DNA from: Ardenticatena maritima
GTDB taxonomy: Bacteria > Chloroflexota > Anaerolineae > Ardenticatenales > Ardenticatenaceae
Assembly: GCF_001306175.1 (NCBI RefSeq)
Contig: NZ_LGKN01000006.1
Span: forward strand, 1 to 64,000
Reading direction: 5' to 3'
DNA length: 64,000 bases
Under the pieces are notes generated by a model that saw only the letters and a program-made list of their open reading frames with translations, made no database searches and had not been told where the DNA came from. The position numbers were made by a program, and so were the translations under genes. Positions 49,046 to 52,195 of this stretch are shown piece after piece (position 1 is the stretch's first letter; every line of letters begins with the position of its first letter).

Positions 49046-49087
49046 AAGGGACGTCGAAGTCGTACAAACGAAATGGAGGAAGTTCCT

Positions 49088-51751
49088 TTGAAACGTCTGC
49101 GTTTTTTGTTGTTCGCACTGGTGCTTGTGCTCAGCGCCTGTGGCACGTCCACAACGTCTGAACGTCAGCCAACCCCAACCAACGCCCCCGAAGTGAAGGC
49201 GTCTTCTCCCGCCAATACATCCGCAGAGGCCACAACGGGGCGCGTTGCGTTCATGGGACCTTACGCGCAAAGTTTCCAGGTCTTTGTGATGAACGCCGAC
49301 GGTAGCGGTTTGCGCCTCGTCTCGGACGGCGAGACCGAATCGCTCTTCCCGTCGCTCTCCCCCGATGGGCGCTATGTCGCCTACACCGCCGTGGTGGGCA
49401 ACAACAACCTGGATATTGTGCGCTACGACCTTGAAACCGAAGAACGCACCCTGCTCACCAGCGGCCCCGACATTGACAGTCAGCCGGTCTATTCGCCCGA
49501 CGGGACGCGCATTGCCTTTGTGAGCAACCGCGATGGGCGCTTGGGGCTGTTCATCATGGATGCGAACGGGCAAAATGTGCGCCGCCTGATTGACCTGGAA
49601 GGCGAAACCATCAACCCACTGGGCAATTGGAGCCCCGACGGGCGGCGTCTGGTGTTTGCCGACACACAGCGCGACGGCACGCAAACGATTCGCGTGGTGG
49701 ATGTTGAAACCGGCGAGGTTACCACGCTTGTCGAGCGCAACGGCGTGGACACCGCACCCACCTTCTCGCCGGACGGCACGCGCATTCTCTTCTTCTCCGA
49801 CCGCGACGGCGGTATGGACGTGTATGTCATGGACACGGACGGGCAAAACGTCCAGCGCCTGACGCAAGACGGCGACAGCATTTACCCCGTCTGGCACCCT
49901 GAGGGCGACGGTTTTCTCTTCACCCGTGTTGACCATGAGCGCTTTGTCATTTTCTGGCGCGGGCTTGATGAGACGACCGCCACGCCTATTCCCAACGTGG
50001 AAGGTGTGGTGACGTCGTGGGTGACCGCGAGCGAACCGCTTGCCGATATTGGCTTTGAGCAGAAGCCGCGCGTCAGCGAGGCGCTTTTACGCGACGCCCC
50101 CGCGAAAGGCAACCCCGACGCGCCGGTGACGATTGTGGCGTTGAGCGATTACCAATGCCCCTTCTGCAAAGAGTTCGCCGAAACCACACTCCCCGAATTG
50201 AACACACTCATCGAAGAGGGGAAAATCCGCCTGGTCTGGCTGGATTTGCCGCTGGACAATCTGCACCCCAACGCACGCGCCGCCGCCCAAGCCGCGCACT
50301 GCGCCCGCGCGCAAGGCGGCGATGACGCTTACTGGGCGATGCATGATGCGCTCTTTGCCGAACAAGCCACGTGGGGCAACGCCCCCGACCCCCTGCCCAC
50401 GTTCGCCAAACTGGCGCAACAAGCCGGGCTGGACGGCAAGGCGCTGCGCGATTGTGTGGTCGCCGAGACGTATGCCGAGACCGTCGAGGCGGGTGTGCAG
50501 GAAGCCAAGCGGCTGAACGTCACCAGTACGCCCACCTTCCTCATTGGCGATACGGTCATCAGCGGGGCGCAACCGCTGGATGTGTTCTACGAGGTGATTG
50601 GCGAGGCGTTGGGCGAAGACCTGCGCCCCACCTACACGGTGAACGCCGACATTGTGGCGAACGCCCCCGCCAAAGGCGACCCCGACGCGCCGATCACCGT
50701 GGTTGAATTCAGCGATTACCAGTGCCCGTTCTGCGAACGGTTCTATCAGGAGACGCTGCCGCAATTGCAACCACTGATTGACGAAGGCAAAGTGCGCCTG
50801 GTGTATGTGGATTTCCCGCTGGAGCAGATTCACCCACAGGCGCGCATGGCGGCGCGCGCCGCGCACTGCGCCCGTGAACAGGGGGGCGATGAAGCCTACT
50901 GGGCGATGCACGACCTGCTGTTCGACAATCAGCAAGCGTGGGGCGTCGCCAACCCGGTGCCGGTCTTTGCTGAGTTGGCGCTCCAGGCGGGGCTGGACCC
51001 AAAAGCGCTGCAAGCCTGCCTTGAAAGCACGCGCTACGATGAGACCGTCACCAGCGGGCTGCGCGAAGGGTTGCGGCTGGGCGTCAGCGGCACGCCGACG
51101 TTCTTCATCGGGGGTGAACGCCTGGTGGGTGCGCAACCCGTCTCGGCGTTCTTCAGCATTTTCGAGCGCCTGCTGGGTGAACCGCTTGCCGCGCCCACGC
51201 CCACGCTGGACGAAGCCGCACTTGCGGCTTTTCCCGCCAAAGGCGACCCCAACGCGCCCATTACGGTGGTCGAGTTCAGCGATTACCAGTGTCCCTTCTG
51301 CGAACGGTTCTATCAGGAGACGCTCCCACAACTTGAACCGCTGATTGATGCTGGTGAAGTCCGCTTCGTCTATGTGGATTTCCCGCTCACGAACATTCAT
51401 CCGCAAGCCTTCGACGCCGCCCAAGCCGCGCACTGCGCCCGCGAACAGGGGGGCGATGCGGCCTACTGGAGCATGCACAACGCGCTGTTTGAGGCCCAGG
51501 CGGAGTGGAGCACCAACAACGCGCTTGATGTGTTCGCCGCGCTTGCCGCGCAACAGTGGCTGGACGGCGAGGCGCTGCGCACCTGCGTTGCCGAGGGGCG
51601 CTATGCCGCGCTGGTGGAGCAAGGGCTGCAACTGGGCATGCAACTGCAAGTGAGCGGGACGCCAACGTTCTTTGTGGAAGGGGAGCGTCTTGTAGGGGCG
51701 CAACCGTTCAGTGCGTTCGAGGCGGTGTTTGCCCGCGTGCGCGGCGAATAA
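49088..51751 (+). CDS. lipoprotein fusing a TolB-like propeller with three DsbA-like domains
   Basis: I choose the TTG at 49088 because GGAGG lies 8 bases upstream and the product then starts MKRLRFLLFALVLVLSACG, a lipoprotein signal with Cys18. Residues about 50-320 form a TolB/WD40-like propeller with repeats such as SPDGTRIAFVSNRDG and FSPDGTRILFFSDRDG. Then come three thioredoxin-fold modules with CPFC at residues 357-360, 546-549 and 735-738, each with a cis-Pro loop (TSTPTFLIG, SGTPTFFIG, SGTPTFFVE). The protein is 887 residues. The last two modules are nearly identical in DNA (about 50650-51200 and 51210-51750), suggesting recent duplication. It diverges from the LysM-NodB lipoprotein. 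Disulfide handling at the envelope is inferred. Confidence 0.92.
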   Translation: MKRLRFLLFALVLVLSACGTSTTSERQPTPTNAPEVKASSPANTSAEATTGRVAFMGPYAQSFQVFVMNADGSGLRLVSDGETESLFPSLSPDGRYVAYTAVVGNNNLDIVRYDLETEERTLLTSGPDIDSQPVYSPDGTRIAFVSNRDGRLGLFIMDANGQNVRRLIDLEGETINPLGNWSPDGRRLVFADTQRDGTQTIRVVDVETGEVTTLVERNGVDTAPTFSPDGTRILFFSDRDGGMDVYVMDTDGQNVQRLTQDGDSIYPVWHPEGDGFLFTRVDHERFVIFWRGLDETTATPIPNVEGVVTSWVTASEPLADIGFEQKPRVSEALLRDAPAKGNPDAPVTIVALSDYQCPFCKEFAETTLPELNTLIEEGKIRLVWLDLPLDNLHPNARAAAQAAHCARAQGGDDAYWAMHDALFAEQATWGNAPDPLPTFAKLAQQAGLDGKALRDCVVAETYAETVEAGVQEAKRLNVTSTPTFLIGDTVISGAQPLDVFYEVIGEALGEDLRPTYTVNADIVANAPAKGDPDAPITVVEFSDYQCPFCERFYQETLPQLQPLIDEGKVRLVYVDFPLEQIHPQARMAARAAHCAREQGGDEAYWAMHDLLFDNQQAWGVANPVPVFAELALQAGLDPKALQACLESTRYDETVTSGLREGLRLGVSGTPTFFIGGERLVGAQPVSAFFSIFERLLGEPLAAPTPTLDEAALAAFPAKGDPNAPITVVEFSDYQCPFCERFYQETLPQLEPLIDAGEVRFVYVDFPLTNIHPQAFDAAQAAHCAREQGGDAAYWSMHNALFEAQAEWSTNNALDVFAALAAQQWLDGEALRTCVAEGRYAALVEQGLQLGMQLQVSGTPTFFVEGERLVGAQPFSAFEAVFARVRGE

Positions 51752-51773
51752 AGCCGACTTTGCCATACATGCG

Positions 51774-51805
51774 ATGCGACGCACGTAAGGTGCGTCGCAT
51801 TTTTG
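51774..51805 (+). terminator. intrinsic terminator after the propeller-DsbA gene
   Basis: TGCGACGCAC (51775-51784) pairs with GTGCGTCGCA (51790-51799), 5-base loop, then a T run. Confidence 0.88.
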
Positions 51806-51868: not shown

Positions 51869-52195
51869 TCATGAACGCAGAATCTTCTCTAGCGGTTTCC
51901 CACGGGCGAGTTCATCAATCAATTTATCCAAATAGCGGATTTCGCGCATCAAGGGGTCTTCAATTTCTTCGACCTGCACCCCACAAACTTTCCCTTTGAT
52001 CAACGTACGGTTCAGGTTCAGCGCCGGAGCCTGCGCCAAAAAGGTTTCGAGATCGTTGCCTTGTTCGATTTGTTGCTGCAAGCCGGCTGGGTCATAGCCC
52101 GTCAACCAGCAGATAATGCAGTCAACTTCTGCTCGCGTACGCTGCTTGCGTTCCGCTTTTTGCACATAGAGCGAATATATTTTGGCAAAGGGCAT
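51869..52195 (-). CDS. DUF2200 family protein
   Basis: The 108-residue protein matches DUF2200 closely: [38 protein letters not shown] and [20 protein letters not shown] then [20 protein letters not shown]. Function unknown. ATG at 52195. It is the last gene of the minus-strand island and lies next to the propeller-DsbA terminator. Often such genes are mobile between unrelated bacteria, but transfer here is an inference. Confidence 0.85.

Follow-up and report, generated by a model that had tools for sequence, protein, structure and literature searches.

The gene considered here, at positions 49088–51751, lies on the forward strand of a window comprising the first 64,000 nucleotides of contig NZ_LGKN01000006.1 from Ardenticatena maritima, as do all features of the gene given below. 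The organism is a thermophilic Chloroflexota bacterium, and its genus consists of filamentous iron reducers. The open reading frame runs from a TTG start to the stop codon and encodes 887 amino acids. The TTG is preceded, at a distance of 8 nt, by the Shine-Dalgarno sequence GGAGG (49075–49079). This site overlaps an in-frame ATG at 49073. The ATG is absent from the second Ardenticatena species, where only GGAGG and TTG are kept, which identifies the TTG at 49088 as the right start.

The protein begins with MKRLRFLLFALVLVLSAC, in which a basic n-region and a hydrophobic stretch lead to the lipobox LSAC, as expected of a bacterial lipoprotein signal peptide ending at Cys18 (49088–49141). Lipobox-like starts are also present in further Ardenticatenales members. 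The initial annotation had proposed a single secreted lipoprotein of 887 residues, and the reading frame, start codon, and lipobox bear this out. Published descriptions class the genus as monoderm (PMC5808234; PMC4653789), so that a lipid anchor would place the domains of the protein on the outer face of the membrane. Residues 19–49 (49142–49234) form a low-complexity linker. The AlphaFold2 (AF2) model has a pLDDT below 50 over residues 16–48, and residues 1–46 share 45% identity between the two Ardenticatena species. The whole protein contains 13 cysteines, which are Cys18 and four in each of three redox modules, with none in the propeller that precedes them.

The gene is flanked by a divergently oriented gene for a LysM-polysaccharide deacetylase and, upstream, by housekeeping genes; SAM hydrolase, phosphoglycerate mutase, amidase, and GlyRS genes are also among the neighbors. 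A 12-pair hairpin followed by a T-rich tail (51773–51801) was returned by a consensus scan for terminators, which is expected to return about as many in the region by chance. No neighboring gene is conserved outside the genus and no synteny exists there, so that the genomic context points to no partner. Around the locus, no linkage was found to a gene for DsbB, CcdA, a cytochrome, a client, or a signaling protein. Directly downstream, between positions 52000 and 57700 of the window, the GC fraction falls from about 0.62 to 0.43–0.50. This stretch encodes DUF2200, DUF4236, and Hypoth_Ymh proteins along with a weak match to an Mrr-like nuclease, and is probably an acquired island.

Residues about 50–320 (49235–50047) form a TolB-type beta-propeller of about six blades, judged by repeat spacing. 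A Pfam profile search of the protein finds four stretches of PD40 (PF07676; 104 bits, E 3e-30). In the AF2 model, the region is all-beta, and its blocks mostly have pLDDT values of 73–96. TolB structures head the list in Foldseek searches against the PDB (E 5e-18, with about 275 columns aligned). Both the repeats and the fold are therefore those of a TolB-type PD40 propeller, located where the initial annotation had put it, and the region folds as one unit in structure prediction.

The propeller is followed by three DsbA-like modules. Module 1 (residues 335–515; 50090–50632) is delimited by profiles, the AF2 model, and alignment, and modules 2 (residues 524–704; 50657–51199) and 3 (residues 713–887; 51224–51748) by profiles and the model. 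Thioredoxin_4 (PF13462) matches in three stretches with 329 bits against a cut-off of 23.2 (E 6e-99), and DSBA (PF01323) likewise in three stretches with 179 bits against 25.6 (E 1e-52). In the AF2 model, each module has the thioredoxin fold with helices inserted between strands. Each also carries a CPFC active site, at Cys357 and Cys360 (50156–50167), Cys546 and Cys549 (50723–50734), and Cys735 and Cys738 (51290–51301), exactly as first annotated. The accompanying cis-proline loops are TSTP in module 1 (residues 479–482; 50522–50533) and SGTP in modules 2 (667–670; 51086–51097) and 3 (856–859; 51653–51664). The best redox match in Foldseek searches against the PDB is TsdA/DsbA of Corynebacterium diphtheriae (E 6e-11, 30–32% identity). 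The architecture first described, a lipoprotein bearing a propeller and three CPFC DsbA-like modules, is thus upheld by profile searches, structure prediction, and Foldseek.

A second cysteine pair is found in each module (405/456, 594/644, and 783/833) and is nearly invariant in relatives as far off as archaea and Patescibacteria. The pair probably forms a structural disulfide. The AF2 model, computed from a nine-row alignment, has a mean pLDDT of 83.9 over the whole protein and a pTM of 0.47, with low-confidence stretches at residues 16–48, 320–326, and 702–705. The domains are therefore only loosely placed relative to one another. A fusion with a single module (L031) is predicted with a pTM of 0.66, too low to fix how the module is turned relative to the propeller. 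Among the distant DsbA-like relatives, three from Patescibacteria, two of Daviesbacteria and one of Harrisonbacteria (L044:5818-6555, L066:5845-6645, L064:5893-6558), look circularly permuted. Their C-terminal half, with the last helices, the GTP cis-proline loop, and GAQP, stands first and is followed by the CPFC half; in L044, profile positions 91–172 precede positions 4–94.

Relatives within the class are tandem lipoproteins of two or three modules that lack a propeller. The Ardenticatena modules are members of this group, the tandem (seleno)lipoproteins of Chloroflexota, and are not novel in themselves. In 10 relative loci, an in-frame TGA falls exactly at the first cysteine of the motif, giving UPFC or UPYC. 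SECIS-like hairpins lie just downstream of these sites, and tRNA-Sec is present in 8 of the 10 genomes. Selenocysteine (Sec) at the first CxxC position, together with these hairpins and tRNA-Sec, marks that residue as the catalytic nucleophile. The Ardenticatena gene itself is not a selenoprotein gene, as it encodes cysteine at all three sites although the genome has tRNA-Sec. A paralog (C3:144290) with a TGA within its match has no Sec site there, and its active site reads SDYSCPHC. Six two-module lipoproteins (L019, L022, L023, L024, L025, and L027) pair a Sec-containing module 1 (UPFC or UPYC) with a module 2 that has no CxxC, an arrangement that recalls the a and b domains of PDI. A further protein (L017, frame + offset 0, residues 502–1038) has two successive Sec sites, UPFC and UPAC, in tandem modules, and after them a third module without CxxC.

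The Sec-bearing relatives belong, on sequence grounds, to or near NF041057, the Rcas_1661 family of thioredoxin-like (seleno)lipoproteins, which is listed as a DsbG-like UxxC selenoprotein family (PMC13188914). The Ardenticatena protein scores 364 bits against the NCBIfam cut-off of 190 for this family. It also has the lipobox and the CxxC expected of a lipoprotein with UxxC or CxxC, Sec being confined to its relatives. Taken singly, the modules score 122–126 bits. Since no single module reaches 190 bits, the automatic name would rest on summed repeats. The modules are of the same family as NF041057; the protein differs in having no Sec, in leaving the first 83 positions of the profile unmatched, and in its additional propeller. 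For repeat proteins in general, this is a caution that summed scores may confer names that no single domain would earn.

The fusion of propeller and module is present in 7 of 7 Ardenticatenales genomes examined. Two of these, both of the genus Ardenticatena (G000 and G001; record L028), have three modules, and the remaining five (G002–G006) have one. Scans that started from the naturally single-module protein of G004 found no fusion in 389 further class genomes or in 399 others of a phylum-wide Chloroflexota sample; they scored the best three candidates per genome, and rare divergent fusions may escape them. A contig scan across phyla, which reaches near relatives only, finds the fusion in L028 and L031, both Ardenticatenales. 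Literature searches found no description of a propeller-Thioredoxin_4 fusion. The architecture is therefore not a common one, in keeping with the initial impression that it matches no named family. A PD40 protein near a thioredoxin lipoprotein (L034) proved to be a protein-kinase-like fusion and was set aside as evidence. In G005, the single-module fusion (C18:14236-15770; L010) is interrupted within its module and continues in a second frame, which reflects either a misassembly or a damaged gene.

The modules repeat every 567 nt, which is the 189 residues first noted. Protein identity is 58% between modules 1 and 2, 53% between modules 1 and 3, and 67% between modules 2 and 3. The initial annotation further saw near-identical DNA and a recent duplication in the last two modules. 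Neither holds, as their DNA agrees at 76% of positions in the first 100 codons and at 57% in the last 70, and a tree of 93 modules speaks against recent duplication as well, a local conversion tract excepted. In this tree, all modules of propeller fusions form one clade (100/98). Nested within it is a clade of the six modules from the two Ardenticatena species (100/88), which splits module 1 from modules 2 and 3 (99/89), and each module pairs with the module at the same position in the second species (98–100% bootstrap). The triplication is therefore older than the split of the two species and is placed, from these sequences, in the stem of the genus Ardenticatena. Within codons 0–51 of modules 2 and 3, 9 sites are shared within species vs 6 by position; within codons 51–170, the counts are 5 and 63 (Fisher p 2e-5 for the contrast between the two tracts). 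This pattern fits later gene conversion restricted to a short tract around the active site, where parallel change may be an alternative source of the sharing within species.

Ratios of NG86 values between the two Ardenticatena species, which are rough figures because synonymous distances are near 1, give a dN/dS of about 0.11 for the propeller and about 0.12, 0.09, and 0.06 for modules 1, 2, and 3. All domains are under purifying selection. With CPFC, the cis-proline, and the second cysteine pair kept in all three modules and dN/dS low everywhere, no module is decaying. In contrast, the last module has no CxxC in many of the class relatives.

What the protein does can be predicted only in broad terms. 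The initial annotation guessed at an envelope disulfide catalyst, which is reasonable and agrees with TsdA. Elsewhere in the genome are a DsbB homologue and two CcdA/DsbD_TM homologues. VKOR has no match in the genome and is rejected as a recycling partner. With these possible partners, either redox direction could operate. We hold with middling confidence that the protein is a disulfide oxidoreductase tethered to the membrane outside the cytoplasm, in which all three modules are active and the propeller serves for docking, and that it oxidizes or isomerizes exported proteins together with DsbB. The exported lipoprotein would be anchored through Cys18 at the outer surface of the one membrane of the cell, where the propeller would serve as a docking platform for a protein partner or client. 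The three tandem modules would act as independent catalysts of thiol-disulfide exchange, with the first cysteine of each CPFC as the attacking residue. Their likeliest task would be the oxidation or isomerization of disulfides in exported and surface proteins, and electrons would be handed to the DsbB-type membrane protein of the genome. From the features above we infer catalysis by all three modules, the redox direction, the recycling partner, the clients, and a binding function for the propeller. The propeller most likely binds a partner, given that it has no cysteine and is as constrained as the modules.

The oxidizing or isomerizing direction is favored at modest odds, and its main competitor is the reverse. 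CcdA would feed cytoplasmic electrons to the three modules, which would then reduce wrong disulfides or oxidized thiols of surface proteins, such as apocytochromes. The two CcdA/DsbD_TM homologues would suit such a pathway, as would the active site itself. CPFC lacks the histidine of CPHC, which is tied to strong oxidases, and TsdA, whose authors think for this reason that it is not primarily an oxidizer, reduces insulin better than MdbA does (PMC9974433). Sec at the attacking position in relatives also suits the chemistry of a reductase or isomerase. Multiheme cytochromes at the cell surface have been reported in the genus (PMC5808234), and this iron-reducing organism is rich in multiheme proteins. 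Yet the gene is linked to neither CcdA nor cytochrome genes and DsbB is present too, which leaves the reducing direction somewhat improbable.

The part played by the propeller is a separate matter. It could be a mere spacer, or a part that lends stability, keeping the redox modules at a distance from the membrane; it would then have been taken from the abundant PD40 lipoproteins and would bind nothing in particular. A stand-alone PD40 propeller protein is encoded in the same genome, these genomes are very rich in propeller domains, and the tandem-module relatives of the class manage without one. However, the propeller is as constrained as the catalytic modules and is kept in every genome of the order examined, and some positions of its first blade and of the C-terminal strand that closes it are conserved across these genomes. 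This argues against a spacer, which we regard as unlikely. At the other extreme, the protein could be a client-selective, multi-headed disulfide catalyst whose propeller recruits one class of surface proteins, such as multiheme cytochromes, for the three tethered sites to act upon. No description of such a foldase was found in the literature for monoderm bacteria, and we give this specific version a small chance. Very improbable is a cell-surface thiol redox sensor or thiol buffer whose modules signal through the propeller, for although several redox sites are tethered to one binding domain and the thioredoxin-like domain of NHLRC2 showed no insulin reductase activity (PMC6107167), the active sites here are canonical CPFC with cis-proline, unlike the CCINC of NHLRC2, and no signaling gene is linked.

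The gene shows how a small clade joined a TolB-type propeller onto a redox lipoprotein and later went from one catalytic module to three, with strong purifying selection throughout. Should the propeller select clients, nature would have set up a test of how extracytoplasmic folding enzymes of monoderm thermophiles tune their choice of substrate and their number of active sites.

Several named systems resemble parts of this protein. TolB of the Tol-Pal system shares the PD40 propeller fold, but the Ardenticatena protein scores 172 bits on the TolB equivalog TIGR02800 (176 bits for the propeller alone) vs a cut-off of 343. As the genus is also described as having no outer membrane proteins or LPS genes (PMC4653789), membership in Tol-Pal is rejected. 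Proteins of the NHLRC2 and SOQ1 type likewise join a thioredoxin fold to a six-bladed propeller, and in human NHLRC2 the thioredoxin site sits in a cleft against its own propeller (PMC6107167). Their thioredoxin domain is, however, N-terminal and TlpA-like with CCINC, and the propeller is made of NHL repeats. The domain order is reversed, and no common origin is implied. The Chloroflexota tandem Thioredoxin_4 lipoproteins (L029, L030, L033, and L021) are nearest in the tree and have two or three DsbA-like modules with CPFC or CPYC, behind a lipoprotein-type signal where this was read (L029, L030, and L033). They differ in having no propeller, and by the tree their arrays arose apart from the Ardenticatena triplication.

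Among characterized proteins, the homologue nearest by both sequence and fold is TsdA of C. diphtheriae (7UNN/4PWO), a membrane-tethered protein with CPFC and a Thr-cis-Pro loop that forms a disulfide in FimA and reduces insulin (PMC9974433). It resembles the Ardenticatena modules in all of these structural features and in the DsbA-like fold, but has one module, no propeller, and no second cysteine pair at the aligned positions. The parts of the Ardenticatena protein are thus ordinary. Their combination, found only in its own order and with one or three copies of the enzyme, is a lineage-specific variant and not a new kind of system.
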